Shown one piece after another: positions 3 through 15,509 of a stretch of DNA of 64,000 nt. The stretch comes from Candidatus Melainabacteria bacterium. GTDB lineage: Bacteria > Cyanobacteriota > Vampirovibrionia > Obscuribacterales > Obscuribacteraceae. How positions within the stretch are numbered: the stretch's first letter is position 1; the number at the start of each line of letters is the position of its first letter. The DNA lies in the NCBI GenBank assembly GCA_003963305.1, contig RXJR01000018.1:1-64000 (forward strand). The letters are read 5' to 3'. Made by a program: the position numbers and the translations under genes. The notes under the pieces are model-generated. The model worked only from the letters and a program-made list of their open reading frames with translations. It was not told where the DNA came from and made no database searches.

Positions 3-920
3 GCGCTTTACGCAGAGGAGCTTGCCGAGCGCGAAGCGGAGCTGCTGAGAGCCAAAAACTACAGCAAGGAGCAAATCGAGGCAGCGGTTAAGTCCAGGGT
101 CAGTCAGGAAGACTTCTTTGAGGGCTTGCTGCGGCATCTGATGGGTTTGAAGACGGAAGTGAACTTGACGTTCGGCGAAATCTTCAACACCGTCGTGCAC
201 GAAGCCGGGCACGCCCTGGGTATCGCCTATGAGCGTTATCTGGGTCGGACCAATGAAATCGTGCGCTTCATTGCAGTAGAGCCGAGGGGGCGCGCCGGTG
301 GTTTGACCTTCAAAACCCCCGACCGTGATGCCTTTGGCAAGACATTGACGCAAGTCGATGCGGATGCTGTTTGTGGCTTCGGTGGCAGTGCGGCGCAGTT
401 GGTTTTCCTGAACGTGAAAGACTCGGGTCCCGACAACGATTTTGAAGTTGTCGGTCAGAATATCTACCGGGCTATCGGGCGCTGGTACGGTTCTGAAAAG
501 TTGGGTCCGATCTCGCTTGGTCAACGCGGCATGACCGCTTCGACCGAGATGGGGACTGCGCAGAAGGACTTGATCGATGCGGAATGCAACCTCAAGACCA
601 AAGTGCTGTATGCAAGAACCTGGTGGATAATGAATCTCTTTATCCGCTCGGAAAGCATCTGGACGATGTTCTGGGAATTGCTGGAAGGCAAGATCATGCG
701 TCAGGACAGATTCGCCGAAATATTCGACCAGGCTATGGCGGAAGTTAAGGCTCATCCTGAGTGGAGCAACGGCGATCTGGACAGCTTGCTTGAAAAGGTC
801 GCCAGGGACCCCTATGGCTGGTCACCCGAGCCGCTGCAAGCTGAGACGCGCGCTTTCATAAAGGCGCGAATCGAGCAACTGCGTCTGCGTTACGAGGCTT
901 TGAACCAGGTCGGTCAGTAA
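3..920 (+). CDS. M41 (FtsH-type) zinc metallopeptidase domain protein, 5' end outside window
   Basis: The frame is open to the left edge, so only the last ~305 residues are visible. The active-site motif HEAGH is encoded at 198-212. It is followed by an FtsH-like block: EPRGRAGGLTF, then a GGSAAQLVF stretch matching the FtsH GGRAAEE region, then SGPDNDFE, where the Asp after Asn (438-440) matches the third zinc ligand of M41 peptidases. Known for the family: ATP-dependent membrane proteolysis. Whether an AAA+ ATPase domain precedes it cannot be seen; the visible upstream part is a charged helical stretch. It opens a forward cluster that also encodes rhomboid, S41 and M50 proteases. Peptidase assignment is firm; substrate is unknown. 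Confidence 0.85.
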   Translation, partial: ALYAEELAEREAELLRAKNYSKEQIEAAVKSRVSQEDFFEGLLRHLMGLKTEVNLTFGEIFNTVVHEAGHALGIAYERYLGRTNEIVRFIAVEPRGRAGGLTFKTPDRDAFGKTLTQVDADAVCGFGGSAAQLVFLNVKDSGPDNDFEVVGQNIYRAIGRWYGSEKLGPISLGQRGMTASTEMGTAQKDLIDAECNLKTKVLYARTWWIMNLFIRSESIWTMFWELLEGKIMRQDRFAEIFDQAMAEVKAHPEWSNGDLDSLLEKVARDPYGWSPEPLQAETRAFIKARIEQLRLRYEALNQVGQ

Positions 921-1018
921 CGCAACTTACTCCATCACGCTTGGCTGACTGTGCCTCTGGTGCAGCACCGAGCGTGGTGGCACCTCAATCTAATAGTGGT
1001 GGATACACCGGAAATACT

Positions 1019-1663
1019 ATGGATACTCAACTTACGAACTTGCAAGCCTTACTCAGATATCCGGCAGTGAAATGGCTTTTGATCCTGAACATCATTCTCT
1101 TCCCGGTTGGGCTTGTGATTGGTGGCGGGGAAGACTTTCGCGCCGTTGGTCTGATTCCATTCAGCTTCATCGAGCAATTGCAGAGCGGACATCTTTTCGA
1201 TTGTTTGACCGGTTTGATTCGACATCAGTTTTTTCATGTCGATATGACCCACCTGTTCGGAAATATGCTCTTTCTGCTGGCGGTCGGATTATCGCTGGAG
1301 TACACGCTTGGAACAAGACGGTTCCTGGCGCTGTATCTTGTCTGCGGTATGCTTTCCGGCATCGGTCTGGTTCTGTTTTCGCCGAATCTGATTTTCCCAC
1401 TCGTGGGTGCATCTGGTGCGATTGCAGGACTGATGGGGGCGACACTCGTCTTGACCAGAGAGCAGCCGCTAGGGGAACTGCCCATTATCCATTTCACTGT
1501 GCGTGCTAAGCACGTCATAGTGGTGTGGTTGCTGTGGCAGTTCGAACTGCTGTTCCAGGCGCTCGGCAATCCGCTGGCCGGGCAGATGGTCGTGCACATC
1601 ACCGGTCTCGCTGCCGGTTACGCCATAGCGTCGTTCTGGAAATCCAGACTGATCGCTGAATAA
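1019..1663 (+). CDS. Rhomboid-family intramembrane serine protease
   Basis: A 214-residue protein with about six hydrophobic helices. It shows the rhomboid signature in order: HxxxN in an early helix (His78, Asn82 in THLFGNM), catalytic Ser132 in GASGAIAG, and catalytic His193 in VVHITG. Family role: cleaves single-pass membrane proteins within the bilayer. The ATG at 1019 is preferred; an in-frame TTG at 941 would add 26 polar residues not expected before the first helix. No strong ribosome site is visible for either. It lies 98 bases after the M41 gene. The last ~36 bases of the gene are imperfectly repeated just after the stop codon. Confidence 0.88.
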   Translation: MDTQLTNLQALLRYPAVKWLLILNIILFPVGLVIGGGEDFRAVGLIPFSFIEQLQSGHLFDCLTGLIRHQFFHVDMTHLFGNMLFLLAVGLSLEYTLGTRRFLALYLVCGMLSGIGLVLFSPNLIFPLVGASGAIAGLMGATLVLTREQPLGELPIIHFTVRAKHVIVVWLLWQFELLFQALGNPLAGQMVVHITGLAAGYAIASFWKSRLIAE

Positions 1664-1672
1664 GTTCCGTGC

Positions 1673-1710
1673 ATGCAGCGTCATTCTGGAATGCCGGAAG
1701 ATCGCTGCAT
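1673..1710 (+). repeat. Inverted repeat in spacer after rhomboid gene
   Basis: Perfect 8-base arms (1673-1680 and 1703-1710) enclose a smaller 5-base inverted repeat, giving a two-tier hairpin. The segment from about 1677 to 1713 also resembles the rhomboid gene's own 3' end (1627-1663), so the hairpin arose within a partial duplication. No T-run follows. Confidence 0.5.
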
Positions 1711-1782
1711 AGTTGCACTACATGCGATGGCATCGTGCTGGCGCGGTGCCTCGTTCTTCAACATCACACATTGGGTACAAAA

Positions 1783-3603
1783 ATGAGAGACTTTTCCGCC
1801 CCGCTCGCAAGAGCACGAGATGCCCTGCAGCAAACTCGATATAAAATGGCTGCCTTCCTTTCCAGTCTGGTGCCTGATCGGCATACGATATTCAAGGCTG
1901 TCATCGTCTTGATGATTGGAACTTACGCACTCTTTCAGCCTTACATGCTGGAATACATCGCGCCGTTTTTCGGGTTGTCGCTGGCTATATTCTCTTTTGC
2001 CCGAACCCGGCGATTTTGGCTTGCGCTTGTGCTGTTTCCGATCGGAACGACTCTGGTGCTGCTGCCATACCTGTTCATGTACAAGGTGGTCATTCCGTCC
2101 TTCTACGAGGCGTCGCTTACCAGCTACAACCAGACCGAGTTTGGTTTGATGATGGTGATGTCAGTGCTGGGCGTGGCCGGACTTTTGCTGACTGTTATGG
2201 TCTTGCATTGGGCGACTGAGCGCCGTAACTTCTGGCTTGGCACGGTCTGGTTGTTTGTCTTGTCATTGTGCGGTGCCTCCTGGTACGCCAACGATAATGA
2301 TGAATTGCGCGCGTGGCAGTTGGCGACCTATGTTGGTGCCAATGTCGAGCGGCTCGAACACGTTCCTGCCACCGTCAATCGCCTGCTTCCCCAGATTTCT
2401 GCAAAGGGTCAGATCAATCTGGACAACCGTTCCAATCTCTATGTACCGGCAGACAAGCCACACCTGTCTCCCGGCGCGGATAAGATGTACTGGTGCTCGC
2501 CGCTCTACTACAAAGACAACCTTGCTTATAACGTGCTGGGCATGGTGCGCGACGTGATTTGCATCGACTCCGATAAGACGGACATGCAGGCGGCCGCAAC
2601 CACTGTTAGCGCTGGACAGGACGGTGTCTATGAGATCCTCAGCCGTTTGCTTGGATTGTACAAATCAAACCCCGGTGATGGCTTTTTCTGGGTCGGCGAT
2701 CAAAGCTTTCTGACGACCGCCGTCTTGAAGCTACGTCACCCGTTCAGCACCAGGGATAGAGTCATCTACACCTACGCACCGGACGGCAGCCGCCACTACC
2801 TGATCACTTATGTGTCACGCTGTCCTTATGCTCTCGGTGCCATGGTGCCTTGTGTCGGCGGCGTCATGGACGTAAGCACAACGAACTGGATACGGGATCT
2901 CAGCATCGAGGAGGCTGAGAAGCTCTATCCGAAAGCAGTGTTCATCTCGTCGGATTTCGCTGCTACCTTGATCAAGGCGTATGCGCAGTTCTACACGGGT
3001 ATCATCAGCAAGAAGTTCAACCAGCAGTCGGCTGGCGTGATGCAAATGAGCTTGGAAGAACGTCCGAAGGAGCTTGCTCCGGAGGATTTCAACCCGGCCC
3101 CGTACATTACCGAGTTCAAGTCTGAGCTGCGTCCTCAACAGATGGCGTCGCTTGAACCGGCGGGCACCAGAGACGGCAAAGCTCTGACTGCGCTGGCAAT
3201 GGTCGACAATTACGGACATTTGCGGATCTTCGAACCGCGTGCCGGAAGTGGACCCGCAATGGCGATCACTTACGCGCACAATGCTGATCCACGGGTCGAT
3301 TGGGGGCACAAGGTCGTCACTGAAGATAGACCGGTAATTGGTGAGGACGACCACATCTATTGGCTGGTATCTGTCGTCAACGACAATCCCCGCCATCCTT
3401 TGTACATCTCGTCTCTCGTAGACAGTGTGCATTTCACGGCTACGGCGATTCACAATGCGCGTGAACTCGATGATTTTCTAAAGCGAGCTGCAAGCGGCAT
3501 CGAACCAGTCGCTGGTGCAGGCGCTTCAGTTCTGCCAAACGTGTCTCCGGCTCCCGCGCCTGATGCATTTCCGCCCGCTGCTATTGCCGCAGCGCCCAAG
3601 TAG
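1783..3603 (+). CDS. Polytopic membrane protein with large C-terminal soluble domain, unknown function
   Basis: I do not recognise a family. From ATG 1783 the protein is 606 residues. The first ~170 residues contain about five hydrophobic segments, with a short linker between the third and fourth. The remainder (~430 residues) is soluble, mixed alpha/beta, with several Cys (CPYALGAMVPC region) and an Ala/Pro-rich tail ending AIAAAPK. An in-frame GTG at 1669 would add 38 residues encoded by the hairpin spacer and is unlikely. Its place between a rhomboid gene and exported proteins suggests an envelope role; that is inference only. Confidence 0.75.
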   Translation: MRDFSAPLARARDALQQTRYKMAAFLSSLVPDRHTIFKAVIVLMIGTYALFQPYMLEYIAPFFGLSLAIFSFARTRRFWLALVLFPIGTTLVLLPYLFMYKVVIPSFYEASLTSYNQTEFGLMMVMSVLGVAGLLLTVMVLHWATERRNFWLGTVWLFVLSLCGASWYANDNDELRAWQLATYVGANVERLEHVPATVNRLLPQISAKGQINLDNRSNLYVPADKPHLSPGADKMYWCSPLYYKDNLAYNVLGMVRDVICIDSDKTDMQAAATTVSAGQDGVYEILSRLLGLYKSNPGDGFFWVGDQSFLTTAVLKLRHPFSTRDRVIYTYAPDGSRHYLITYVSRCPYALGAMVPCVGGVMDVSTTNWIRDLSIEEAEKLYPKAVFISSDFAATLIKAYAQFYTGIISKKFNQQSAGVMQMSLEERPKELAPEDFNPAPYITEFKSELRPQQMASLEPAGTRDGKALTALAMVDNYGHLRIFEPRAGSGPAMAITYAHNADPRVDWGHKVVTEDRPVIGEDDHIYWLVSVVNDNPRHPLYISSLVDSVHFTATAIHNARELDDFLKRAASGIEPVAGAGASVLPNVSPAPAPDAFPPAAIAAAPK

Positions 3604-3605
3604 CC

Positions 3606-3665
3606 ATTAACCTGATGCCGCCTCATCGCGGCATTAACCTTGCGCCGCTCATTGCGGCATCAACC
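3606..3665 (+). repeat. Two tandem hairpin-forming repeats upstream of a lipoprotein gene
   Basis: A 27-base unit (3606-3632) is followed by a 26-base imperfect copy (3633-3658) and the first seven bases of a third. Each copy contains a GCCGC...GCGGC hairpin; in the first it is seven base pairs (3615-3621 with 3628-3634). The pair lies directly before the ribosome site of the gene at 3685. Confidence 0.7.
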
Positions 3666-3684
3666 ATTCATTTGGAGAAAATCC

Positions 3685-3912
3685 ATGAAAGCAAAATTCC
3701 TGATCTTAGCCGTATTGCTTAGCGCTTTGCTGACTGGCTGTGTCGGCGTTCCCGTCGATGTGGGCGTGGGCGTGCGCGTGCCGATGTATCGGCCGTATGG
3801 CCCCTATAATCACTGGCGTCGTCCTTACATTCCGTACCAGCGTTATCCGTTGTACAACGGGTCTCCGTACCCGTATCAGTATCGTCAATACGATAACTTC
3901 CGTCGCTGGTAA
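3685..3912 (+). CDS. Small Tyr/Pro/Arg-rich lipoprotein
   Basis: A 75-residue protein with a classic lipoprotein signal: basic start MKAK, hydrophobic core, and lipobox LTGC with the Cys at residue ~18. The mature part is short and rich in Tyr, Pro and Arg, without a recognisable domain. A GGAG ribosome site sits eight bases upstream of ATG 3685, which rules out the longer start at 3640. Likely anchored in the outer or inner membrane. It shares Tyr-rich character with the next gene, so the two may act together; function unknown. Confidence 0.75.
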   Translation: MKAKFLILAVLLSALLTGCVGVPVDVGVGVRVPMYRPYGPYNHWRRPYIPYQRYPLYNGSPYPYQYRQYDNFRRW

Positions 3913-3944
3913 TCGTCACTCAACCTCAATCTCCGGAGATAGTG

Positions 3945-4424
3945 ATGAATTCATTGAAAACGACGATTCTGCTGACCGCTCTTTGTGTACCCGTGCTTTC
4001 TCTAGCCTGGGAGGGCGACGGGAGCGGGTCCGATCACGAGTATCTCGAGTATCACGAATACTACGAATACCACGAGTATCGTGAGTACAACGGGGATAGC
4101 CAGCAGCCGCAGCAGTACGAGCCCGCACCGATCGCCGAGCCCACTTTGGCGAATCCGTGTTGCGGTCAGAACCAGCTGCGATACCAGTATGTTCAGCCTT
4201 GTTGCGGTCAACACCAGCAGCCATACCAGAACCTACAGCCGTGTTGCAGTCAGAATCAGCAGCGATACCAGTTTGTGCCGCCCATTGGTGAACCGGCACC
4301 GGGTTCCAATCAGCCGCTTTACCAGGATGTGCCGTATCAAGCATACCCGCAACAACAAAGGCAGGGCTATCCGTTCTACGAGCGATATGAGCGTGAGCGC
4401 TGGCACTGCTTTAAACAACGTTGA
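3945..4424 (+). CDS. Exported protein with EYHEY-type and CCGQ-type internal repeats
   Basis: A 159-residue protein with an N-terminal signal peptide (ending near LSLAWEG). After it come a run of Glu-Tyr-His repeats and three copies of a ~19-residue unit beginning PCCGQ/PCCSQ and rich in Gln and Tyr, then a Pro/Gln/Tyr-rich tail. Paired cysteines suggest disulfides or metal binding; the repeat style is that of surface or matrix proteins. GGAG at 3935-3938 gives a six-base spacing to ATG 3945, preferred over GTG 3942. Possibly co-transcribed with the lipoprotein 32 bases upstream. No family recognised. Confidence 0.75.
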   Translation: MNSLKTTILLTALCVPVLSLAWEGDGSGSDHEYLEYHEYYEYHEYREYNGDSQQPQQYEPAPIAEPTLANPCCGQNQLRYQYVQPCCGQHQQPYQNLQPCCSQNQQRYQFVPPIGEPAPGSNQPLYQDVPYQAYPQQQRQGYPFYERYERERWHCFKQR

Positions 4425-4456
4425 GGCCTGACTGACGTTCTGTCTTAACTGAATGT

Positions 4457-4490
4457 GCGAAAGCGAGACGAGCAATAGTCTCGCTTTCGC
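4457..4490 (+). terminator. 13-base-pair perfect hairpin, terminator-like
   Basis: Arms 4457-4469 and 4478-4490 are perfect reverse complements around an eight-base loop. No T-run follows on either strand, so it may be an mRNA 3' stabiliser or Rho-linked end rather than an intrinsic terminator. Confidence 0.55.
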
Positions 4491-4534
4491 CATCAAAAGA
4501 CGAATCCCATAAACTTTCTATACAGGAATTAAAC

Positions 4535-5074
4535 ATGAAGATCACACACTCGATATTTGCTTCACTCGCTCTGTTGCTGCTATTTGTTGCGGCTGCCCGG
4601 GCAGAGGAAGCTGCACAAGCGAATCCGGTTCAAATAGTCACCTCCGCGAACAACTATGCGGAGATGGATCAGATGTCTCTAGCTCTGATACAGCTGTGCC
4701 GGGCCGATGAGTGTAAGTTTGACAAGATTTTGCTCGATAAGGCTGCAAAAGGTTCAACGACCGTCGCCTTTGTGCAGATGAACACCGTGGACAACGCCGA
4801 ATTCGCTGCTCGCATTCACAAGGAACAGCAAGAAACCCTGGAATTCACTCACAATGTCTTGGTTCGTATCTGGCGGGCATTCGCGCGCTGGGCGGGCTGG
4901 GGTGGAGAATACGAACAGGTGCGGTATCCCATCTATGTGTTCAAAGGTTCAGCACTGACTGTCGCTTATAACATCAACGGAGTGGATGACATCAAGAGTT
5001 TCGTCCAGGTAAATTCCGGCGGCGGTAGCGACGAATCAGGCTTAGAGCCGGAAACCCAGACAGAACAACCTTAA
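4535..5074 (+). CDS. Exported thioredoxin-fold-like protein
   Basis: A 179-residue protein with a signal peptide (cleavage near ARAEEA). The body has the order expected for a thioredoxin fold: a beta-strand leading to LCRADEC (a Cys-x4-Cys pair where thioredoxin has CxxC), a helix, a VAFVQMN strand, and YPIYVFKGS, which matches the cis-Pro loop and following strand. The pair is not a standard redox motif, so oxidoreductase activity is uncertain. A 30-residue Trp-rich insert lies before the cis-Pro strand. The C-terminus is acidic. An AGGA ribosome site precedes ATG 4535. It sits directly before the first S41 protease gene. Confidence 0.65.
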   Translation: MKITHSIFASLALLLLFVAAARAEEAAQANPVQIVTSANNYAEMDQMSLALIQLCRADECKFDKILLDKAAKGSTTVAFVQMNTVDNAEFAARIHKEQQETLEFTHNVLVRIWRAFARWAGWGGEYEQVRYPIYVFKGSALTVAYNINGVDDIKSFVQVNSGGGSDESGLEPETQTEQP

Positions 5075-5087
5075 CTTCCGCATTGTT

Positions 5088-5147
5088 GGGATGACGGCAG
5101 CAAAGCTGTTGGGCGATATCTGCTTAAAGCGCTGTTGTCGTTATCCC
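5088..5147 (+). repeat. Imperfect inverted repeat before first S41 gene
   Basis: GGGATGACG-CAG at 5088-5100 can pair with CTG-CG-TATCCC ending at 5147, giving a long interrupted stem in the spacer between the thioredoxin-like and S41 genes. Confidence 0.4.
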
Positions 5148-5194
5148 GCTCACGGATGCTTTTATCCTTTGTTCAACTAATCATTGGAGTTTTT

Positions 5195-6928
5195 ATGAAA
5201 GACGCAGAAAAAAGCGCTTTTCTTCGGTTTTTGCTGCCGGCACTTGTGGCTGGTCGGCGTGCGCTGCGGGGCAACCTCGGAACGGTCTGCCTCCTGATTC
5301 TGGGCGTGACCCTTGTGCTTATGGTAGCGTTTGGAAGGCACGGAACCATTGGGGCATCAGTAACCGCACGTAGTACCACCACAGCACTTCCTGCCATCGC
5401 AAATGTGACCGCGGATTCCCCGGCCAACGCCGCTGCTGACGCCGCTATGTTCGCGGGGTGTGAACCAGCCAACAGGGGCAGTTTCGATGGACATCTTCTC
5501 TATCGCTGCGTGTTTAATTACACAAGGCAAAGAGAGTACTCACTGATCGATGCCGCCGTTGCTGAAAAGTTTGCCGCTGAGTTCGAGCACAAGCACGATC
5601 AGGATGGCATGCTCGACAGCGAAGATGGTACGAAAAATGCTATTGACGAGATGTTGGCCAGTCTTAATCAGCCTCACACCAGGTTCCTCGATGTGAATGG
5701 GGTTCAACAACTGCTTAGTCACATTCGGGGAACCCTGAGCGGTGTCGGGGCGTATGTAATGCAAAAGGGCGTCGAAAGCCGAATCAAGGCGGCAGGCGTT
5801 AATCCGACTCCGGGACAGCTGCTGGCTGCTCAGATAGTAACGCCAGCGAGTGGCGTATACTTTTGGCCCGCACCTCTGCCCGGTGGTCCTGCTGATCGAG
5901 CCGGTGTGCGCAGTGGTGATCACATTTTGAAGATTGGTGGCGAGCCGGTGGAAGGTCATACTTTCTCCGAGGTGAGCCAGCTTCTGCAGGGGGAGGCGGG
6001 AAGCCAGGTTCAAGTCGTCGTAGAGCGCAGGAGTGGAGGCAATACATCTCAGCTATCTCTGCAGATAACCAGAGAGGCAGTGACAGTGCCGATGGTGCAA
6101 ACTGACGACCTGGATGACACTGCACCTGGTACCATAGCGTCGCTTACTCTGACGGCATTTGCGTCGAAAGACTTGCATATCACTTTCGCGCAAAGCCTCT
6201 TCAGGCTCTGTACAGGCATATCATTGCCCGTTAACGCCGGGGGCGGAATCGATTTCCCAACCGACTACGATCCGGAAACAGGCTGTAAGTTGAAAGGACT
6301 TGTGCTCGACTTCCGTAACGACGGTGGAGGCAGAGATGATTTCGCTAAAATCATTCCGCAGTTGTTGATTGACCATGGACCTCTTGTTTCTACATGGGAG
6401 CGTCATGGCAATCAAATAGTCGAAACCAAGTTGGTGCTCGAGCCGAACACCCTGGTGACGGAAATCTTTATCGATGGTGAGCTGAAAAGTGCCACGGGCG
6501 CCGACCGATACATGAATCTGTTACCACGCAATCTTCCGATTGTGGTGCTGATCAACGGACGCAGTGCCAGTGCATCGGAAATGGTGGCGGGTCTTTTGCA
6601 GCGTCATGGTGCAACCATCGTCGGTACGCCTTCTTATGGCAAGGATGTAGGACAGGAAGTGATTCCGCTCGCTTTCGGCACTGCTCTTAAAACCACAGTG
6701 CTCAAGTTCAAGCCTGGCGATGAAGAGCTTGGAGCTGCGATCATGCCTGATGTTGAAGTCGAGCAATCGACTGCATATCTGGATGATCCGATGTCTGTCC
6801 GAGATGCGCAGCTGACCCGAGCTGTCGAGGTGATTCGCAATCGCATTGCGCAGGCTTCGACGGCTTCGAGGCGGGCAGACCAGTTGCGTCAGCAACACAA
6901 AGAACGCGACGCTCGCGCCGCTCTCTAA
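5195..6928 (+). CDS. S41-family PDZ protease (C-terminal processing peptidase type), membrane anchored
   Basis: A 577-residue protein with one N-terminal transmembrane segment (residues ~28-47), so the catalytic part is extracytoplasmic. Residues 89-105 form a CxPxNRGxFDGxxLYxC module shared with the next S41 gene. A PDZ domain spans ~217-292 (GGPADRAGVRSGDHILKI). The S41 core includes LDFRNDGGG, then SASASE with nucleophile Ser459, and SYGKDVGQ with general base Lys483, so the Ser-Lys dyad is intact. The family cleaves C-terminal tails of periplasmic proteins. GGAG at 5185-5188 fixes ATG 5195. A ~45-residue insert (about 340-370) around a Cys pair is unusual. Confidence 0.9.
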   Translation: MKDAEKSAFLRFLLPALVAGRRALRGNLGTVCLLILGVTLVLMVAFGRHGTIGASVTARSTTTALPAIANVTADSPANAAADAAMFAGCEPANRGSFDGHLLYRCVFNYTRQREYSLIDAAVAEKFAAEFEHKHDQDGMLDSEDGTKNAIDEMLASLNQPHTRFLDVNGVQQLLSHIRGTLSGVGAYVMQKGVESRIKAAGVNPTPGQLLAAQIVTPASGVYFWPAPLPGGPADRAGVRSGDHILKIGGEPVEGHTFSEVSQLLQGEAGSQVQVVVERRSGGNTSQLSLQITREAVTVPMVQTDDLDDTAPGTIASLTLTAFASKDLHITFAQSLFRLCTGISLPVNAGGGIDFPTDYDPETGCKLKGLVLDFRNDGGGRDDFAKIIPQLLIDHGPLVSTWERHGNQIVETKLVLEPNTLVTEIFIDGELKSATGADRYMNLLPRNLPIVVLINGRSASASEMVAGLLQRHGATIVGTPSYGKDVGQEVIPLAFGTALKTTVLKFKPGDEELGAAIMPDVEVEQSTAYLDDPMSVRDAQLTRAVEVIRNRIAQASTASRRADQLRQQHKERDARAAL

Positions 6929-7011: not shown

Positions 7012-8556
7012 ATGAAGAAACTTTCTCTCGTCAAGAAACATCCGGTGCTGGCAGCCGTAGCGGCTCTAGCTTTCTTTTTCGCTGCGTTTGACTGGTTCAG
7101 TTCTGATGAATGTAGCCCGTCAAATCGTGGACCTTTCGATGGAAAGGTTTTGTACACCTGCACGGTCAAAGCTGTGGCAGATATTCATCGGGGCAACACC
7201 GATCCGCAGGTGCGTCAAGCCTGGCTGGACGTGTGGTTGCATCGCTTTGACAATTCCAATTTGCTCGCTGATGAAACCGGCACGTTGAAGGCTGTGACCG
7301 ACATGCTCATGAGCATGAACGAGCGCTTTGACTATTTCTACACGCCGGCTGAGACTCGCCAGAACAGCATCGACGAAGAGGGGCAGATTGCAGGCATTGG
7401 TGCCAACATTGCTTTCGTTGGCAAAACATCAGCCGCTCTCGAGAAACTGGAGCTTCCGAAATATCCGACATCACAAGCGCGTGCCCTGCTGCGGAAAAAG
7501 TATGGCACTGCAGGTAATGGCGCCCGCTTCGAGAAGATTGTTGTTGCATCCGACCCGGCTCCTGGCACGCCTGCTTATGGAGCTGGATTGAAGGCTGGAG
7601 ACCAGATTCTTGAAATCAACGGTGCCGCGATTGACGCGAGCGCCGACGCCGAGGCTTTGATTGCCAATGTGCGTGGGCCTGAAGGCAGTCGAGTTACCTT
7701 GAAGATATTATCTGGAGCAGAGGGTAAGCAGAGAACTGTGCACCTGGTGCGTCAGATTATCAAGATGCCGGCGGCCAGTGAGAGCGATATCGGCGATGTG
7801 GGTGTGGTGCGTATTGCCGAATTCGACAGTGAAAACACTGCGGCCGACGTTCATGAAGCGGTGGACAAAGCTTGCGGCGTGACAGGAGCGAAGGAGCCCG
7901 AAAAAGGCTGTAAGGCTAACGCGCTCATAATCGATTTGCGCGACAATCCCGGTGGCAGGCTGGATTTGGTGCTCAATGTCGTTCAGCTGTTCGTCGATCA
8001 GGGCAGTCTGGTCACCGTTAACATGCGAAACGGCGATCACACGGACAGTCAGAACTACATCTTGACCGCAAACCAGCTATCCCTGACTCTTCCTGACGGC
8101 ACCGCTCAGCACGTAAAGCGCTGGATTCCGGTGCACTTTCCGCTGGATCGTCCTATCGTCGTGCTGACCAATGAAAATACCGCCAGTGGTGCGGAAGCTC
8201 TGGCTGAAATGCTGCAACGTTACAGGAACGCCATTGTCGTAGGCAGGAGAACGGTTGGTAAGGGTGTGGGGCAATGTCCTGTCGGTTTGCCTTTCGACTA
8301 TTCCCTGTTTCCTATCTGCATGGAGTATTCCATCGACAATAAGTCGGTCGACTGGGTTGGCGTTACTCCGGATGTAGAAGTGGCGGCCGGCGATGGCGCT
8401 TCGGACTTGCAGATGGCCAGAGCCCTCGAGGTTGCTCACAATCCTTCCGCATTCGCTGCAGCGAACAGCAACGTTGATCTGACTTCCATCATGAAACAGC
8501 GTAAGGCTGAGTTCAGTGATGCCCAAGAGAAGATGCGTGCACTGTTGGGTCTTTAG
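7012..8556 (+). CDS. Second S41-family PDZ protease, paralogue of the preceding gene
   Basis: A 514-residue protein with an N-terminal membrane anchor (residues ~11-29). Residues 34-50 repeat the CxPxNRGxFDGxxLYxC module of the upstream paralogue. A PDZ domain lies at ~174-247 (YGAGLKAGDQILEING). The S41 core has IIDLRDNPGG, then NENTASGAE with nucleophile Ser392, and TVGKGVGQ with Lys417; the Ser-Lys dyad is complete. It differs from the first copy by a shorter N-terminus and an extra Cys pair late in the protein (QCPVG...PIC). The two copies are divergent enough to have separate substrates. Next gene follows after 49 bases. Confidence 0.9.
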   Translation: MKKLSLVKKHPVLAAVAALAFFFAAFDWFSSDECSPSNRGPFDGKVLYTCTVKAVADIHRGNTDPQVRQAWLDVWLHRFDNSNLLADETGTLKAVTDMLMSMNERFDYFYTPAETRQNSIDEEGQIAGIGANIAFVGKTSAALEKLELPKYPTSQARALLRKKYGTAGNGARFEKIVVASDPAPGTPAYGAGLKAGDQILEINGAAIDASADAEALIANVRGPEGSRVTLKILSGAEGKQRTVHLVRQIIKMPAASESDIGDVGVVRIAEFDSENTAADVHEAVDKACGVTGAKEPEKGCKANALIIDLRDNPGGRLDLVLNVVQLFVDQGSLVTVNMRNGDHTDSQNYILTANQLSLTLPDGTAQHVKRWIPVHFPLDRPIVVLTNENTASGAEALAEMLQRYRNAIVVGRRTVGKGVGQCPVGLPFDYSLFPICMEYSIDNKSVDWVGVTPDVEVAAGDGASDLQMARALEVAHNPSAFAAANSNVDLTSIMKQRKAEFSDAQEKMRALLGL

Positions 8557-8605
8557 CCGGCTCAGCATTCCCCAAAAATAACTTAGTCCTCAAGCAGGAG
8601 TGTTC

Positions 8606-9025
8606 ATGAAAATAAAAAGTATCCTTGCGTCAATCGTAGTTACGATCATCAGCATCGCCGCGGCCACCGCCTACGGCAAAGATGATGATTACGCGCCCGC
8701 TCACTTCATAACATCGGTGACGAATCAGACCTTCCACCAGGAAGTTTCTGATTCGCAAAAGCCGGTTGTTTTGGACGTTTGCGCTCCTGCCGACTGTGCT
8801 GCTCGTATCGCTGCAACCGAGCGACTGGCGGTGCAGTTTACTGGTCGTGCCAGATTTGTTCAAGCGCCTACAACAGAAAATTCCGCATTAGTGCAGCGCG
8901 TCAATTCGCCCGGGCTCGTCATTCCGACCTATATGGTGAGCATCAACGATGAGTTGTTTATTGTGCGAAAAAATCTAACCGAGGCTGAAGCGAAGGCCTT
9001 CATCGAGTCGGTTATCAGTCCGTAG
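8606..9025 (+). CDS. Exported thioredoxin-like protein
   Basis: A 139-residue protein: signal peptide (residues 1 to ~23), then a compact thioredoxin fold. Visible elements are PVVLDVCAPADC in place of the WCGPC active site (Cys-x4-Cys), a helix, a VQAPTTEN strand, and the cis-Pro loop VIPTYMVS. The widened cysteine spacing argues against classical disulfide exchange. AGGAG at 8595-8599 gives six bases to ATG 8606; the in-frame GTG at 8600 overlaps the ribosome-site spacing. It follows the second S41 protease as the protein at 4535 precedes the first. Confidence 0.78.
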   Translation: MKIKSILASIVVTIISIAAATAYGKDDDYAPAHFITSVTNQTFHQEVSDSQKPVVLDVCAPADCAARIAATERLAVQFTGRARFVQAPTTENSALVQRVNSPGLVIPTYMVSINDELFIVRKNLTEAEAKAFIESVISP

Positions 9026-9142
9026 GTCTGTAAGTCTGGTTGGTACCTGTTCAGTACTGCCACAAGGAAGTGGTGGATTTTTCGTTCTCGCGTCGCAATC
9101 GGACTGCGGCGTTGAGAACCACTTATTAAGAGAGAAAGAGTA

Positions 9143-9979
9143 ATGGAGAAACAAACATATCATGCTGGATTCGAGATGATTGAGGCGAAGGGCTGGCTCA
9201 ATTTCGTGCGCGCTGCTTTGCGAGTCAAAGGAATGACCGTCGTGCCGAGGACATACGAAATTGAGGTGGCGGAAGGACTGGTGAAGTCGGTGATCTATCC
9301 GGATGCTGAGAGAGCCGAATTCACTTATCAGGGTGCTCACCCTTGCGCTGCGAGCATTCGCGGTAGAGACTTCGTCTTCGAATCGGCAGGTGACATCTAC
9401 AAGGAAGATCGCACCACCTGGTACGACTTGCAGGTCATACACGAGGACTCTCCCTTGTATTGCGCCGGCACAGTCATCTTGTCTCGTTTTGACATGTTGG
9501 AAGTGATTGCGCCTTTGATGTGTTACAAGGTCGGGTTCATGCCGGATTCGCGAATTCAAACGATCGCGTATCCAGACCGTTCAACTGGTCTGTGTATTTA
9601 TCAGGATGATGTGTTGTGCGCTTTTAAGAGGTCGGAGGGCGAGTCCGAAAAATGCTGGCAGCTTGTCGTTGCAGAGGAAGCGCCGGAGTTTTTCGAGGGC
9701 AAGGTGCAACGACTGCAGGTGGTTTCTGATCCGAAATCGAAGAACTTCGGTTCTCTTTTGCTGGAAGGAACCGACGGTAACGCGGAGATTCGGGCCGTTT
9801 ACCCAATCGACGGCAGCTCGATTGTGGTTCGCTATGAGCAGGGTGTTTGCCGTCACATCGAGATGACCGGTGCAGATGGGCAAATAACGTGCTACTCGGC
9901 TGTTGCGCCTGGGTTGGCTGTTTGCGACCGCACCGGGCAGGTGATTCCGATGCCGGACTACTCGTACCTCTTTCAGTGA
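9143..9979 (+). CDS. Conserved-looking cytosolic protein of unknown function
   Basis: A 278-residue soluble protein with no signal peptide or membrane segment. Composition is typical of a folded, beta-rich domain protein (many alternating strands such as YEIEVAEGLVKSVIY and AEIRAVYPIDGSSIVVRY). No motif I can name. An A/G-rich ribosome site (AGAGAAAGAG) precedes ATG 9143. It is part of the forward cluster, between the thioredoxin-like gene and short unknown genes. Confidence 0.72.
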   Translation: MEKQTYHAGFEMIEAKGWLNFVRAALRVKGMTVVPRTYEIEVAEGLVKSVIYPDAERAEFTYQGAHPCAASIRGRDFVFESAGDIYKEDRTTWYDLQVIHEDSPLYCAGTVILSRFDMLEVIAPLMCYKVGFMPDSRIQTIAYPDRSTGLCIYQDDVLCAFKRSEGESEKCWQLVVAEEAPEFFEGKVQRLQVVSDPKSKNFGSLLLEGTDGNAEIRAVYPIDGSSIVVRYEQGVCRHIEMTGADGQITCYSAVAPGLAVCDRTGQVIPMPDYSYLFQ

Positions 9980-10095
9980 GCGCTTAGTTAGCCTGGTCTG
10001 ATAGGAGACCGGGGGGAAGCGCTAGAACGGCTTGCTACACTCGCTAGATTCGCTCGTTACAACCACTCGCGTTTGGCTTCGGCTGGGCGCGAGTG
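9979..10095 (+). repeat. Two successive hairpins in spacer
   Basis: The first hairpin pairs 9979-9985 with 10017-10023 and holds an inner GGTCT/AGACC stem (9995-9999 with 10006-10010). The second pairs 10064-10071 with 10088-10095 perfectly over eight bases and is followed by CCTTTT. The second ends 16 bases before the ribosome site of the gene at 10123, so it could act as terminator or leader structure. Confidence 0.55.
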
Positions 10096-10122
10096 CCTTT
10101 TACCAACTTTCGGAGAACTAAA

Positions 10123-10446: not shown

Positions 10447-10466
10447 CTTTACGCCTCAGAATGTGA

Positions 10467-10526
10467 GCGAGTCGTCGAGACAGCGCCGATTTTGACACAG
10501 TTGAGCGCCTGTGCTCGACGCACTCG
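10467..10526 (+). repeat. Interrupted long inverted repeat
   Basis: CGAGT, GTCGAG and ACAG (10468-10483) pair in order with CTGT, CTCGAC and ACTCG (10509-10526). The hairpin fills the spacer before the gene at 10567. Confidence 0.5.
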
Positions 10527-10566
10527 TTTGGATAACAAAACCTATAACTTTCCAGCAGGAATAACT

Positions 10567-10938
10567 ATGAATGAATTATTGAACGGCTTTCTGGTGGCGT
10601 TTTGCATCGTCGTCATTTACTATCACTGGTTCAAGTTCGAGATGAAGCGGCACTTCGAGGAGGACTTGGAAGCAGTGAAGAAGAAAATCGAAGAGGCGAG
10701 ATTGGCTGTGGCAGGCTCGCCCGACAATAACAACGCCTGCAATCATTTGCTGATGGCGTCCACCATAATGCGACAAATCGACGCGTCTGATTGGCGCACG
10801 GCCACAAGCCTGGACGATTTGCTCGCGCTTCGTCGGCGCCTTGCTCAGTCTCAGGAGGCTGCTATTCTGGCAGTCGCAGCCTGTCGAGGTTGGGTCGGTA
10901 AGATGGGTCCAGAGCCGTCGTACGTCTTCTACGCCTGA
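10567..10938 (+). CDS. Small single-pass membrane protein with cytosolic helical domain
   Basis: A 123-residue protein. Residues ~3-22 (LLNGFLVAFCIVVIYYHWF) form one membrane segment at the extreme N-terminus; the rest is charged and helical (EEDLEAVKKKIEEARLAV), possibly a coiled coil. AGGA precedes ATG 10567. The next gene, an ion channel, starts 24 bases after its stop, so the two are probably co-translated from one mRNA. No family recognised. Confidence 0.62.
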   Translation: MNELLNGFLVAFCIVVIYYHWFKFEMKRHFEEDLEAVKKKIEEARLAVAGSPDNNNACNHLLMASTIMRQIDASDWRTATSLDDLLALRRRLAQSQEAAILAVAACRGWVGKMGPEPSYVFYA

Positions 10939-10962
10939 AGTGCCTGGTTTGTGGGGCTGTCT

Positions 10963-11499
10963 ATGTTTTTTGAAAGGCACCAAAAAATCGGGTGCAGAGC
11001 AGAACGCTGCCTGCATTGTCTCGCGCGGCATCCAGTCGTTTCATCTGTGTGCATACTCTCCTGCCTCACCGTATTCGGTTCGATAGTTTTGTATCGTATC
11101 GAACCGAATACGTTTAAATCGCTAGGTGATGGACTCTGGTTTACTTATATCAGCTTGCTTGGTATCGGATACGGTGACATTGTGCCGCATTCCTGGCAAG
11201 GAAGAGTCGTGGCGGCGCCGCTGCTCTTGTCTGGTATCGTTTGCGTCAGTGTCTTTACTGCGATTGTGGAATTGTTCTTTCTGCGTCCTTTCCTCAAGAT
11301 TGGACCAGACAATCGTTTCTTGCTACAGGAAATTCGGAAGTTGCAAGAAGCGGTCGTAACTGAGCAAGCCAAGCTTCAGGCGCAGCAGGAAGCACAACAG
11401 AGAGATTGGGCACAGTTTCAAGTTCAACAGGTTGAGCTTCAGGCTCAGATTCAAGCACTGATCGTGCTTATCACCAACAACATCGGAGATTCTTTATGA
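10963..11499 (+). CDS. Two-transmembrane potassium-channel-like protein with C-terminal coiled coil
   Basis: A 178-residue protein with two membrane helices (about residues 26-46 and 81-103) flanking a pore loop TYISLLGIGYGDIVP. GIGYGD matches the TVGYGD selectivity filter of K+ channels with Ile for Val and Gly for Thr, so ion selectivity needs caution. The C-terminal ~75 residues are a Gln-rich coiled coil (heptad-like EIRKLQEAV..QAKLQAQQEAQQ), likely a tetramerisation stalk in place of an RCK domain. Start ATG 10963; GTG 10951 is an alternative. Its TGA overlaps the ATG of the M50 protease gene (ATGA), implying translational coupling. Confidence 0.8.
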   Translation: MFFERHQKIGCRAERCLHCLARHPVVSSVCILSCLTVFGSIVLYRIEPNTFKSLGDGLWFTYISLLGIGYGDIVPHSWQGRVVAAPLLLSGIVCVSVFTAIVELFFLRPFLKIGPDNRFLLQEIRKLQEAVVTEQAKLQAQQEAQQRDWAQFQVQQVELQAQIQALIVLITNNIGDSL

Positions 11500-12737
11500 A
11501 TCCATTAGGCATTTTTCGTTCGAAGTTCCCGCCAGTAAAGCAGGTTCTGTCAATCATGCTGGCTATAATCCTGGCCGATTTTCTCTTTGCGTACGCATTC
11601 GGTCAGGTCGTCGCAGCGCTGGTTATCGTCTTTCTGATTATCATCCACGAGGTGGGACACTGGATTCCTGCTCGTATGATGGGGCTGAGCGTCAAGACGT
11701 TTTCGGTCGGCTTCGGCAAAACCATCTACCAGTATCCCAAACCGATATGGGGTACCTATTTTCGGCTCAGCAGCGTTCCTTTAGGTGGGTACATAGTGCC
11801 CGATGACGATGACATGGCGCGCGCGCCAATCTGGAAGCGAGCCGTGTTCATCAGTGGCGGACCGCTTATGAATTTGCTGTGCGCCGTGCTGATTACGTTT
11901 TTCTCCTACACGCTCGTGGGAGAGCCGCAGGCGTTCAAACCTACGGGAAGCGTCATTGCCGAGCTGGACTCGAAAATCACCGCTGCCTATGACAGCGGTC
12001 TTCGCGTTGGCGATGAGTTCGTCAACATCGAAGGGCAGAGGGTTTTCTCTGCCAGGGAGGTCTTCAACGCCCTTCTCGCGCATCAAAGCAGCCCGGTTGC
12101 CGTGGATGTAAAACGCGGCGATCAAGTCATTTCTCTCAAGTTGGATCACGATGCCAACGGTAAGCTCGGGCTGAAGGGTGTTCGGCAGAAGGGTTATGTG
12201 CCTTATGCGCAGGTAGGTGTCTTGACTGCTGCGGTTGATGCAGTCGACAAAACTGCCGAGGCGACTGGAGCTACCCTTGAGTGGCTCGGCAAATTGCTGC
12301 ATATCGTTCCCAGGTCTAACGAGGAGCAAGTGAACGCCGATCAGCTGCAAAGTCTGATTGGTATTGTGCAAACCGGCGGCGAACTCTTCCAGTCAGGACT
12401 GGCTGACTTTCTGGCATTTGCTGCGATTGTCAGTTTGTCTCTGGGGGTGCTCAATTTCTTGCCTTTGCCTGCTCTGGACGGCGGACACTTGCTGTTCCTC
12501 GCAATTGAGAAGATGAGAGGCAAGGCGGTGTCGGTCATGGTTCAACGTTGGTCGAGTTTGGGGACGATCGGATTGCTTTTGCTCGTCACCTTTTATGCTG
12601 CCTACAATGACCTGATCAGACTGGTTGGACCGCACTGGGCCGCGCCAGTAACAGCACTTTTGTTTTGTCTGTTGGTGCGCTACACGGTGCCGTACTCTGT
12701 CCGAATCTCAGTAACGAGGAGGCTGCGCAGAAGTTGA
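11496..12737 (+). CDS. M50 site-2 protease, RseP-like, with PDZ domain
   Basis: A 413-residue integral membrane zinc protease. The zinc motif HEVGH is at residues 51-55 inside the first helix, a PLGGYI loop follows, one PDZ domain lies at ~152-228 (YDSGLRVGDEFVNIEG), and the third ligand is Asp328 in NFLPLPALDGG. Three or four more helices close the protein. The family performs intramembrane cleavage of anti-sigma factors and other single-pass proteins, usually after a first cut by another protease; rhomboid and S41 enzymes encoded nearby could provide that. It is unusual that it overlaps an ion-channel gene rather than sitting in the usual dxr/bamA context. Confidence 0.92.
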   Translation: MNPLGIFRSKFPPVKQVLSIMLAIILADFLFAYAFGQVVAALVIVFLIIIHEVGHWIPARMMGLSVKTFSVGFGKTIYQYPKPIWGTYFRLSSVPLGGYIVPDDDDMARAPIWKRAVFISGGPLMNLLCAVLITFFSYTLVGEPQAFKPTGSVIAELDSKITAAYDSGLRVGDEFVNIEGQRVFSAREVFNALLAHQSSPVAVDVKRGDQVISLKLDHDANGKLGLKGVRQKGYVPYAQVGVLTAAVDAVDKTAEATGATLEWLGKLLHIVPRSNEEQVNADQLQSLIGIVQTGGELFQSGLADFLAFAAIVSLSLGVLNFLPLPALDGGHLLFLAIEKMRGKAVSVMVQRWSSLGTIGLLLLVTFYAAYNDLIRLVGPHWAAPVTALLFCLLVRYTVPYSVRISVTRRLRRS

Positions 12738-12768
12738 GTTGGGTTCTGTAAGTGCAACATCTCTAAAA

Positions 12769-12795
12769 CAATCGGGCAACGAAATTGCCCGATTG
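12769..12795 (+). terminator. 11-base-pair hairpin after the M50 gene
   Basis: Arms 12769-12779 and 12785-12795 pair perfectly around CGAAA. On the plus strand A-residues follow; the T-run (TTTTAGAG) lies on the minus-strand side. Position after the channel-protease pair makes a transcription end plausible. Confidence 0.6.
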
Positions 12796-12916
12796 AAAAC
12801 CTGCTGTTTTCCGAAAGTCCCTTCAATTGTCCCGCTGGCGGTGAGTTCACGTGCCGTCAGTTCATTGGTTTTCAGGCGAACAGCAACACTAAAGTCGCAA
12901 ATCGGAGTTCAAAAAA

Positions 12917-13078
12917 ATGACCAAGAAAGCAAAAAAATCATCTGCAAAATCTTTGAGAGACCTCGGACACACCATGCCTGCGTCGCTCTTGATGCAAAGC
13001 CAGGTGGGCAGATTGCATAAGCTGCGCGCGCAGAGAATTTCAATCAGCAAAATTCAGCGGCGACTGTCGCAATCCTGA
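12917..13078 (+). CDS. Very small basic protein, unknown function
   Basis: A 53-residue open frame beginning MTKKAKKSSAKS and ending RRLSQS. GGAG at 12904-12907 gives nine bases to ATG 12917. It is strongly basic throughout (many Lys and Arg), which suits nucleic-acid or ribosome binding, but length precludes a family call. It overlaps a longer in-frame-shifted open frame (12739-13020) whose composition looks random. Coding status rests on the ribosome site and the Lys/Ala-rich amino-acid pattern. Confidence 0.5.
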   Translation: MTKKAKKSSAKSLRDLGHTMPASLLMQSQVGRLHKLRAQRISISKIQRRLSQS

Positions 13079-13098
13079 GTGGGGTGATTTCGACGTTG

Positions 13099-13127
13099 TC
13101 GCGTGAATCATCTTTAGGGATTCGCGA
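13099..13127 (+). repeat. Hairpin before the zinc-ribbon gene
   Basis: TCGCG-T-GAATC (13099-13109) pairs with GATTCGCGA (13119-13127), leaving one bulged T. Confidence 0.45.
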
Positions 13128-13197
13128 GTCCATTGACTGAATCGAAAGGCAGCTAGAGTCGCACAACCTCGTTCCAACTTACACAAAGGAGTTGATC

Positions 13198-13494
13198 GTG
13201 ATCGTCATATGCAAGCACTGCTTGTTGTCATACGCGCAACAATGCGAGAACTCCGCTTGCCCACATTGCGGCATGGGTGGTGAAGCCAGTTCGCTGATTC
13301 CTCCTGCCGAAGTTACGTGTACACACTGTGGCAAGGTGTCTATAAGAGCATCATTGACCTGGCCGTGCCCGCACTGCCACCAGGGCGAGAATGTTTCGTA
13401 TGGCGTTGCTGGACCACTTGTGGTCTGCCCGCACTGCCTGCATGAATATTCTGCTTTGGGCAAGGGTGCTTGTTGCCCGTTTTGTAAACGATAG
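13198..13494 (+). CDS. Multi-zinc-ribbon protein
   Basis: A 98-residue protein with six CxxC knuckles: CKHC, CPHC, CTHC, CPHC, CPHC and CPFC, enough for three zinc ribbons. Spacing and lack of other sequence suggest a compact metal-bound adaptor that could bind nucleic acid or protein. AAAGGAG at 13185-13191 leaves six bases before GTG 13198; the TTG at 13192 has no spacing, so the GTG start is chosen. No signal peptide, so cytosolic. Confidence 0.75.
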   Translation: MIVICKHCLLSYAQQCENSACPHCGMGGEASSLIPPAEVTCTHCGKVSIRASLTWPCPHCHQGENVSYGVAGPLVVCPHCLHEYSALGKGACCPFCKR

Positions 13495-13776
13495 GCGCAA
13501 GTCGATAGAAAATTAGCCGTGGACCAGGGAAGGTCCTCGCTTTTTACTAATGACCATCAAGGATGCGGTCGCCTGGTAAGCAAGATGCAGGGCTTTGTTG
13601 AATGGTCACGCTTTCATCGTGGTCATTCCAGAGAGTCTTGTTTAGAGTCTTGTGCTGCACTGTATGTGGTGCAAATTTCGGCGAGCGTTGGAGAGACTTC
13701 AGTCTCTTTAGCCGTTCTAATCATAACCGGTGCGAAGAAGCCCCTGGTTGTCTTCGCTATTTACGGAGAGAAATTT
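13495..13776 (+). other. Spacer with a short perfect hairpin, no gene seen
   Basis: The frame of the next gene is open across this stretch, but its translation lacks domain character and the ribosome site at 13765 marks a later start. AGAGAC (13692-13697) and GTCTCT (13702-13707) form a tight hairpin with a four-base loop. CTTGTTTAGAGTCTTG contains a short direct repeat. Confidence 0.5.
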
Positions 13777-14280
13777 ATGAATACATCAAAGTCTTCAAAA
13801 CTCTACCTTCTTCTCAAGTTGATTTGTGCTGGCTTCTTCATCGGCGGTTGCACAGGAGCAGCGCTTCTGCTGGCCGGTGTGTTTCAGGATCCAATCACAG
13901 AGTTGTTCTGCTCCCTTGCTGGTGCTGTCATTTTGCCGACGGTAGTTAATTTCGTTCTTGAAACTCGGCGCTTAGCACAAGAAGCGATCGCAAAGGATCA
14001 AAAGGAAGAGTGCTCTGTCGAAATCGGCGCTCAGCTCGTAGCTTTTCTGGATGAAACCAGCAACGAAATGAGATTTTTGGATACGGAGTTCGAAAGATGG
14101 ATTGCCGAACGTAGCCAGCCGAATGGACAGATTTGCCGTAGCGGTGTGGTTGTTGAATTGTGGGCTTGCGCCGAAGAGTTTCCGGCATGTGAAGTCCATG
14201 CTCGCATCAGCCGTGGCCGCAGTGCCAGGTGGCTAGGCACTTTCAGTGACACTCAGATAGTGGCAATCCTCGCAGAATAG
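13777..14280 (+). CDS. Small membrane protein with C-terminal cytosolic domain
   Basis: A 167-residue protein. Two hydrophobic segments (residues ~9-29 and ~36-58) form a hairpin in the membrane; the remaining ~105 residues are soluble with mixed charge and a WACAEEFPACEVHAR stretch with two Cys. GGAG at 13765-13768 gives eight bases to ATG 13777. No family recognised. It precedes the ABC transmembrane gene and may be in the same transcript. Confidence 0.65.
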   Translation: MNTSKSSKLYLLLKLICAGFFIGGCTGAALLLAGVFQDPITELFCSLAGAVILPTVVNFVLETRRLAQEAIAKDQKEECSVEIGAQLVAFLDETSNEMRFLDTEFERWIAERSQPNGQICRSGVVVELWACAEEFPACEVHARISRGRSARWLGTFSDTQIVAILAE

Positions 14281-14314
14281 CTGTTCGTTGGATGTCCTCT
14301 GGTGATCACTGTTT

Positions 14315-14373
14315 CTGGTTGGCATCGATTGACTGCTGTCTTCGACTGACCGCTGTCTTCGATGCCCGACCAG
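14315..14373 (+). repeat. Long near-perfect inverted repeat before ABC gene
   Basis: CTGGT-T-GGCATCGA (14315-14328) pairs with TCGATGCC-CG-ACCAG (14359-14373). The loop contains a direct repeat of CTGTCTTCGA. Confidence 0.55.
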
Positions 14374-14429
14374 ACAAGACCGGCTCAGCTACGGCTGTAA
14401 GCCTCTCTTTAATTCACTGGAGAACCTCC

Positions 14430-15509
14430 ATGAACATGCTCAAACAATTCCCCTGGAAAAAGCTTTTGAGAGTGGGTAAGCCGTTTTGGGTTTCCGAGAC
14501 GCGCAATGTTGCCTACAAACGCTTTTTCGCGCTGCTGGCTTTGATAGCCGGCCAAACCTTCGTGCTTCTTCTCATCAACAAAACGAATGGAGCATTTTTC
14601 ACCGCTATAGAAAAACACTCGATGTGGGACTACTACCTGTACATGGCTATCTACATAGCTTTGTTAGGACTTAACACCCCGCTGCAAGTGAAGATATCGC
14701 TGACCCGCACGCGACTGGCTCTTTTGTGGCGATCATGGTTATCAAAGAAAACGTTTGCCTCAGCTTGCGCTGAAGATGCAATCGGCAAATTTGCTGACCA
14801 TCCCCAGATCGACCACCCCGAGCAACGTATGACGCAGGACCTTGATTCGTTCTGCAACAGTTTTTTGGGGCTTGTGATCTCGATAATAGAAGCGTCTGCG
14901 CATGTAGTGATATTCTCTGTCGTGCTCTTCCACCTGTCTCCGATACTCTTCTGGACCGATCTGGGTTATGCAACTCTGGGTGTCCTGATTGTCGCTTCGA
15001 TAGGTAAAGAGATGCCGGCATTGAATGATAAGCAATTCGCATCGGAAGCAGCTCTGCGGACGACGCTGGCATTAACGAACGACCCGCACTATCTGCAATC
15101 AGGTACGAGTGCGAGCTTGCACCGTGAAGCATTGTCTCAGCTTGACACCGTAATAAAAACGTTGTTAGGCATTGCGACATTGAACAGCCGTGTGCAGATG
15201 TTCACCACCGGCTTCAATCTGCTGGTGCCGTTGATCCCCGCAATAATTATGGCGCCGATATACTTCCGCGGCGACATCGAATTTGGTGCCATCACTCAAT
15301 CAGTCATGGCATTCACGGTCGTCTTCAATGGAGCAACTCTATTGATCGCCCAATTCGGCGGTATCAGTGCTTTCGCCGCGGTGACAAATCGAGTCGGAGC
15401 GCTGTTGGAAGAACTCGAGTCCGTGACGGACGCCGCAGACGGTGGTTCGATCGTCAAAATCGATCGCGGGGAGTCGGCTGTTCGGGAGGCGAGTGAATGT
15501 CGCGGTTGA
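14430..15509 (+). CDS. ABC transporter transmembrane domain (SbmA/YddA type) lacking an ATPase domain
   Basis: A 359-residue protein with about six membrane segments. DHPEQRMTQDL matches the NPDQR-x-x-x-D signature of the SbmA/BacA and YddA exporter transmembrane family, and the order of helices fits. In full transporters the ATP-binding domain follows at about residue 330; here only ~30 polar residues remain (VGALLEELESV... to SECRG) and no Walker A or signature motif occurs in the rest of the frame or the next 120 bases. It is therefore either an SbmA-like ATPase-free transporter or a truncated exporter. GGAG at 14419-14422 fixes ATG 14430. Confidence 0.75.
   Translation: MNMLKQFPWKKLLRVGKPFWVSETRNVAYKRFFALLALIAGQTFVLLLINKTNGAFFTAIEKHSMWDYYLYMAIYIALLGLNTPLQVKISLTRTRLALLWRSWLSKKTFASACAEDAIGKFADHPQIDHPEQRMTQDLDSFCNSFLGLVISIIEASAHVVIFSVVLFHLSPILFWTDLGYATLGVLIVASIGKEMPALNDKQFASEAALRTTLALTNDPHYLQSGTSASLHREALSQLDTVIKTLLGIATLNSRVQMFTTGFNLLVPLIPAIIMAPIYFRGDIEFGAITQSVMAFTVVFNGATLLIAQFGGISAFAAVTNRVGALLEELESVTDAADGGSIVKIDRGESAVREASECRG

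Follow-up and report, generated by a model that had tools for sequence, protein, structure and literature searches.

The window analysed here, the first 64 kb of the 318 kb contig C18 of genome G000 (7.48 Mb, 44 contigs), opens with a cluster of genes at positions 3-15509 that encodes five proteases together with a membrane protein we term G3. In related Obscuribacteraceae, protease genes cluster around G3, protease sub-families are co-inherited with it, and domains of the set are fused in single proteins. We therefore favour reading the window locus as one instance of a lineage-specific module of the Obscuribacteraceae-type family for the turnover of envelope and membrane proteins, and judge this reading to have about an even chance of being correct; the function of the module is what we infer. 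The gain, loss and occasional fusion of several envelope and membrane protease genes as one set around G3 suggests a dedicated machine, so far undescribed, that dismantles or processes membrane proteins. The host belongs to an uncultured, non-photosynthetic sister group of the cyanobacteria, in which envelope biology is almost unknown. The genes of the cluster, all on the + strand with short intergenic gaps, are as follows.

3..920 (+): M41 domain of an FtsH-like AAA protease (FtsH-G), 5' part cut by the contig start; PF01434 4.7e-16, HEAGH/NDF
941..1663 (+): rhomboid intramembrane serine protease; PF01694 3.7e-23, GASG and HITG
1669..3603 (+): G3 membrane protein, N-terminal transmembrane helices and a large soluble domain, the cluster marker; start GTG 1669 or ATG 1783
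3685..3912 (+): small exported lipoprotein-like protein; signal/LTGC motif, no Pfam match
3942..4424 (+): exported Cys/Gln-rich repeat protein; signal-like N-terminus, no Pfam match
4535..5074 (+): TRX1, exported thioredoxin-like protein, CRADEC; no Pfam match, homologous to the middle domain of the fusion described below
5135..6928 (+): S41a, membrane-anchored PDZ/S41 serine protease; PF03572 8.1e-25, start TTG 5135 or ATG 5195
7012..8556 (+): S41b, second PDZ/S41 protease; PF03572 3.2e-31
8600..9025 (+): TRX2, exported thioredoxin-like protein, CAPADC; PF00085 2.2e-4, slightly under cut-off
9143..9979 (+): soluble protein, 278 amino acids; no Pfam match
10951..11499 (+): two-transmembrane GYG-type ion channel; PF07885 (Ion_trans_2) 1.5e-13, GYG
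11496..12737 (+): M50 (RseP-type) site-2 protease with one PDZ domain; PF02163 3.5e-49, HEVGH and LDGG
14292..15509 (+): SbmA/BacA-like ABC transmembrane domain (ABC2), 405 amino acids; PF06472 1.8e-16, PF05992 5.6e-9

Pfam searches and a motif check bear out a sequence-only reading of this DNA in placing five proteases with intact catalytic motifs on one strand (SASASE/TASGAE plus GK..GQ in the S41 proteases), with an ion channel (Ion_trans_2 with GYG) and an ABC transmembrane domain (ABC_membrane_2/SbmA_BacA) among them. The exported thioredoxin-like proteins that it described are present as a pair, but their motif is C-x4-C, not CxxC, and the Thioredoxin cut-off is not reached (TRX2, PF00085, 21.6 bits versus 23.5); the predicted structure of TRX1 has a pLDDT of 43. 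Its count of the M41 protease as intramembrane or periplasmic does not hold. Full-length relatives combine AAA and M41 domains in about 770 amino acids, so the window M41 is an FtsH-type protease with its active site expected on the cytosolic side. The FtsH architecture is recovered from PF00004 and PF01434 in the L068 homologue, HEAGH and NDF in the window and two transmembrane segments in the G012 homologue. S41a and S41b pass the Pfam S41 cut-off and fall below the prc model TIGR00225 (161 and 156 bits versus 218.6), and the window rhomboid is also below the GlpG model cut-off. ABC2 is an ABC-type transmembrane domain without ATPase, with PF06472 and PF05992 above cut-off and no ABC_tran match.

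The M41 and rhomboid genes lie 20 bases apart, and the channel and M50 genes overlap by 4 bases. Across the genome, BLAST finds 3 M50, 20 S41, 3 rhomboid and 8 M41 matches, counts from which distant members may be missing. The protease grouping would be expected by chance at about 4e-6, and none of 20,000 random placements in 7.48 Mb reproduced it.

G3 occurs in 23 of the 50 family genomes (12 of 24 genera) and in none of 385 other sampled genomes of the phylum. Up to 20 kb was read around each of 30 G3 genes, with several contigs extended, and 13 of these loci, from ten genomes in six genera, carry genes of the FtsH-like, S41, M50 or CPBP kinds, for the most part on a single strand. Altogether, the G3 loci contain 35 FtsH, S41, M50 or rhomboid genes in 469 kb, and control stretches of the same family contain 3 in 399 kb. 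The proteases had been taken to form one set, and the comparison of neighbourhoods agrees: relatives do not carry the genes scattered without adjacency, overlapping clusters are found in five other genera, and some members are fused in one protein.

In the direction of transcription, the gene order is MocR pair, patatin, F10, X513, G3, ABC2, CPBP-Trx-S41 fusion, M50, FtsH, S41, SDR on G063:C105; MocR pair, F8, SDR, patatin, F10, X513, G3, GH30, ABC2, fusion, FtsH, FtsH, S41 on G040:C51; MocR pair, G3, X513, rhomboid, CPBP, S41, SDR/ECH, patatin, FtsH-G on G012:C112; MocR pair, F8, G3, rhomboid, SDR, FtsH-G in G053 and G054; and G3, patatin, S41, M50, S41 on G017:C260. Rhomboid and FtsH genes are adjacent in the window (3-1663) and at L118 and L119, and in genus g11 the fusion and the short ABC2 lie 60-110 kb off or on separate contigs. 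What stays constant is G3, an AAA+M41 and/or S41/PDZ protease and, in most cases, a single intramembrane protease of exchangeable type (rhomboid, CPBP or M50), a composition in keeping with a unit for turnover or quality control. Orthology of the window rhomboid with the G012, G053 and G054 rhomboids is unsupported, other family rhomboids scoring higher with the window protein. X513 (L068:15668-17209 (-), L134:7018-8463 (+)), kept beside G3 in three genera, is a His/Met-rich exported, beta-barrel-like protein of no Pfam family.

Trees place the window M41 inside a 100/100 clade of FtsH-G proteins, S41a inside a 100/99 clade with the S41s of G3 clusters and the fusions, and the M50 inside a 98/96 clade with the cluster M50s of G060:C106 and G063:C105; S41b is placed weakly among general S41s. 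The M41 and M50 clades hold G3-cluster proteins only, with one exception: G061 has G3, but its FtsH-G sits next to an M50 on a different contig of 14 kb. Members of the S41a clade come only from G3-bearing genomes, with some fusions on other contigs or 60 kb distant. The short, ATPase-less ABC2 is found in 11 genomes, all 11 with G3. Three species of genus g13 have G3, the fusion and the short ABC2 and three have none of these, and the two sister species in the window genus g1 are without G3, FtsH-G and the short ABC2. Within both genera, a genome has either the full set of tested markers or none of them, although single absences are uncertain because the genomes without the set are only 77-93% complete.

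FtsH-G is encoded by 8 of the 50 family genomes, all of which have G3, and the window M41 is 68-85% identical to its G3-cluster homologues. Nine of ten FtsH-G copies sit in a G3 cluster, where the C40 copy of G000 is counted via an inferred contig order. Besides an amino-acid permease, contig C40 (L087, 4.5 kb, 2-4536) carries further FtsH-G sequence: an N-terminal half, a degraded copy and a second M41 end, which is 86% identical to the window M41 and truncated at about the same position. C40 probably continues the sequence beyond the break in the window's contig, and the two sequences look like a tandem FtsH-G duplication that broke the assembly. A scan of the M41 alignment against genomes of 84,980 species gave matches at seven loci only, every one of them in this branch, with named records from Candidatus Obscuribacter phosphatis, Candidatus Obscuribacterales and Melainabacteria metagenome-assembled genomes.

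Parts of the set are also joined at the protein level. In G040 and G063, a single open frame of 1037-1108 amino acids combines a CPBP/Rce1-like protease (EExxxR, PF02517 cut-off passed), a C-x4-C thioredoxin-like domain, a PDZ domain and an S41 protease. The fusion is also encoded by G012, G042, G043 and G053 and, judging from match length, by G054, and all seven fusion-bearing genomes have G3. The triple fusions listed in relatives are:

L129:2409-5522 (-), L124:4601-7927 (-), L248:929-3916 (-): CPBP-Trx-S41 fusions
L249:4101-7088 (-), L188:8396-11269 (-), L243:9853-13113 (-): CPBP-Trx-S41 fusions

TRX1 matches the middle domain of the fusion (E 1.9e-10 for L129, 1.3e-9 for L124) and S41a is 33-36% identical to its S41 part, so the window TRX1-S41a pair is the split form of the fusion. 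On G012:C112, a CPBP gene 26 bases ahead of the cluster S41 represents a split form of the other joint. No description of the protease cluster or of the CPBP-Trx-S41 fusion was found in the literature searched.

Several observations weigh against a turnover module. The stretch read at 17 of the 30 G3 loci holds no FtsH, S41, M50 or CPBP gene, in some cases because contigs end, and the p-value of 6e-7 for the excess of protease genes at G3 loci is overstated because several loci come from the same genus and do not count as independent. Clusters differ in gene order and in the type of protease, and the window rhomboid is 29% identical to that of G012. A full-length FtsH-G relative, L132, scores under the FtsH cut-off (TIGR01241, 351 bits versus 600). 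G3 itself has only chance matches in Pfam (searched member by member), NCBIfam and PDB profiles, and its predicted structure is poor (pLDDT 44); one G3 member matches PepSY weakly (0.12).

If the locus is a turnover module, the interchangeable intramembrane protease (rhomboid, CPBP/Rce1 or M50) would recognise membrane or exported proteins and nick them inside the membrane, while the membrane-anchored PDZ/S41 protease and its C-x4-C thioredoxin-like partner would nick substrates from the periplasm. FtsH-G (AAA+M41) could then extract the membrane-embedded remainder and degrade it in the cytoplasm, with G3 serving as a scaffold, substrate or receptor dedicated to the module. The SbmA-like membrane domain may import the resulting peptides, and the patatin, SDR and ECH proteins of the sister clusters may act on accompanying lipid; the presence of patatin and SDR/ECH genes there hints that lipid is handled too. 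A bolder version, in which the set forms a modular, co-inherited multi-protease complex around G3 and works as a single membrane-protein disassembly line, with an interchangeable intramembrane protease, a thioredoxin-like-assisted S41/PDZ protease and a special AAA+M41 protease, is put forward tentatively, and we think it likelier wrong than right.

Elsewhere in the window lie a beta-amylase-type glycoside hydrolase family 14 gene (21009-22403; PF01373, 2.6e-86) and two LRR_4 leucine-rich-repeat proteins (17244-18071, 47031-47567) with regular LP-rich repeats and no further domain. Three paralogous genes encoding 147-161 amino acids (16096-16539, 18183-18668, 18966-19448; the first without a Pfam match when scanned) are interleaved with two paralogous small membrane proteins (15630-16028, 16581-17108).

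Among other explanations, the one that fares best, though we consider it unlikely, is regulated intramembrane proteolysis, with a first cut by S41 or rhomboid and a second by M50 that would release a signal from a membrane-bound regulator, perhaps G3. The M50 passes the RseP model TIGR00054 (201 bits versus a cut-off of 147.55) with its HEVGH and LDGG zinc site present. A PDZ-bearing serine protease with an M50 protease is a classic site-1/site-2 pairing, which the combination found here resembles, and the type of intramembrane protease is swapped between clusters, yet a cut is seemingly kept. However, the genes scanned in the window and G012 clusters include neither a sigma or anti-sigma factor nor a membrane-bound regulator, and the AAA+M41 protease, patatin and SDR are ill-suited to a simple signal relay. 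The staged cascade controlling a membrane signal that the sequence-only reading proposed is thus not supported, and the regulators beside most relatives' clusters are cytosolic MocR-type pairs.

Somewhat less probable still is a role in the maturation or sorting of exported proteins, whereby rhomboid and CPBP would act on tagged surface proteins in the manner of rhombosortase or myxosortase and S41 would trim tails. The best NCBIfam match of the window rhomboid is indeed rhombosortase (TIGR03902), the CPBP part of the fusion matches MroQ/myxosortase models, and exported repeat proteins are present in the window; however, every one of these matches is well under its curated cut-off (41.4 bits versus 84 for rhombosortase, and 30.9 versus 100 for NF040914). 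An FtsH-type protease, as present in the cluster, is not known to be part of such systems.

We regard as improbable a system of peptide production and uptake for nutrient or signal peptide salvage, in which the proteases would make peptides for import by the SbmA-like domain. The short ABC2 tracks G3 in all 11 genomes and contig C40 has an amino-acid permease next to its FtsH copies, but ABC2 fails the SbmA equivalog PRK11098 (18.6 bits versus a cut-off of 492), the permease is seen in a single genome, and patatin and SDR go unexplained. That the genes share no function, and that protease-rich genomes with numerous S41 and FtsH paralogues, gene-dense regions, chance or hitch-hiking produced clusters of unfixed gene order, is very improbable given the 4e-6 expectation, the cluster-specific clades, the domain fusion and the joint presence or absence within genera.

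The turnover module that we favour differs from the known arrangements with which it shares members. Canonical FtsH-M50 pairs (L070, L072, L074, L076, L079, L082, L084), in which an AAA+M41 gene adjoins an M50 as here, have no link to G3 or S41; in trees their FtsH falls in a separate clade and the window M50 lies outside their group, and membership was rejected. Such a pair is conserved family-wide beside BtpA-like and DUF4388-like genes, named by eye (L072, L074, L076, L079, L082, L084, L086). Tandem PDZ/S41 pairs (L071, L073, L080, L083, L085) likewise consist of two tandem genes, as in the window, but the stretch read around them lacks both G3 and any intramembrane protease; they belong to S41 clades other than that of S41a, and identity with these Bat/VWA-associated pairs was also rejected. 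They adjoin BatA/VWA/MoxR-type genes (named by eye), an arrangement conserved across the family.

Rhombosortase and myxosortase systems share with the clusters a rhomboid or CPBP intramembrane protease, but membership was rejected on the scores given above. The clusters differ from them in having FtsH and S41 partners and a CPBP-Trx-S41 fusion, none of which we know to be part of those systems. RseP/sigma-E proteolysis is closer in that the M50 carries a PDZ domain, scores above the RseP cut-off and has PDZ-bearing serine proteases nearby; unlike that system, the serine proteases here are S41 and not S1 (DegS) enzymes, an AAA+M41 protease is present, and the genome has two further M50 genes.

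For most bacterial rhomboid and CPBP proteases neither partners nor substrates have been identified, and only a handful of cases connect intramembrane proteases with FtsH. A natural cluster and a natural CPBP-Trx-S41 fusion point to direct, testable partnerships of intramembrane, periplasmic and AAA proteases. The closest tested precedent for the proposed function is YqgP-FtsH of B. subtilis, in which the rhomboid YqgP cleaves MgtE and serves as an FtsH adaptor (PMC7231995). Both bring together a rhomboid and an FtsH-type AAA protease, proposed to work jointly on multi-spanning membrane proteins, a likeness seen here in the adjacency of two genes. Unlike YqgP-FtsH, the clusters add S41/PDZ and M50 or CPBP proteases, thioredoxin-like partners, G3 and ABC2, and some relatives' clusters have CPBP or M50 in place of the rhomboid. 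By this analogy, the module would work like rhomboid-FtsH quality control and turnover, with more proteases gathered together.

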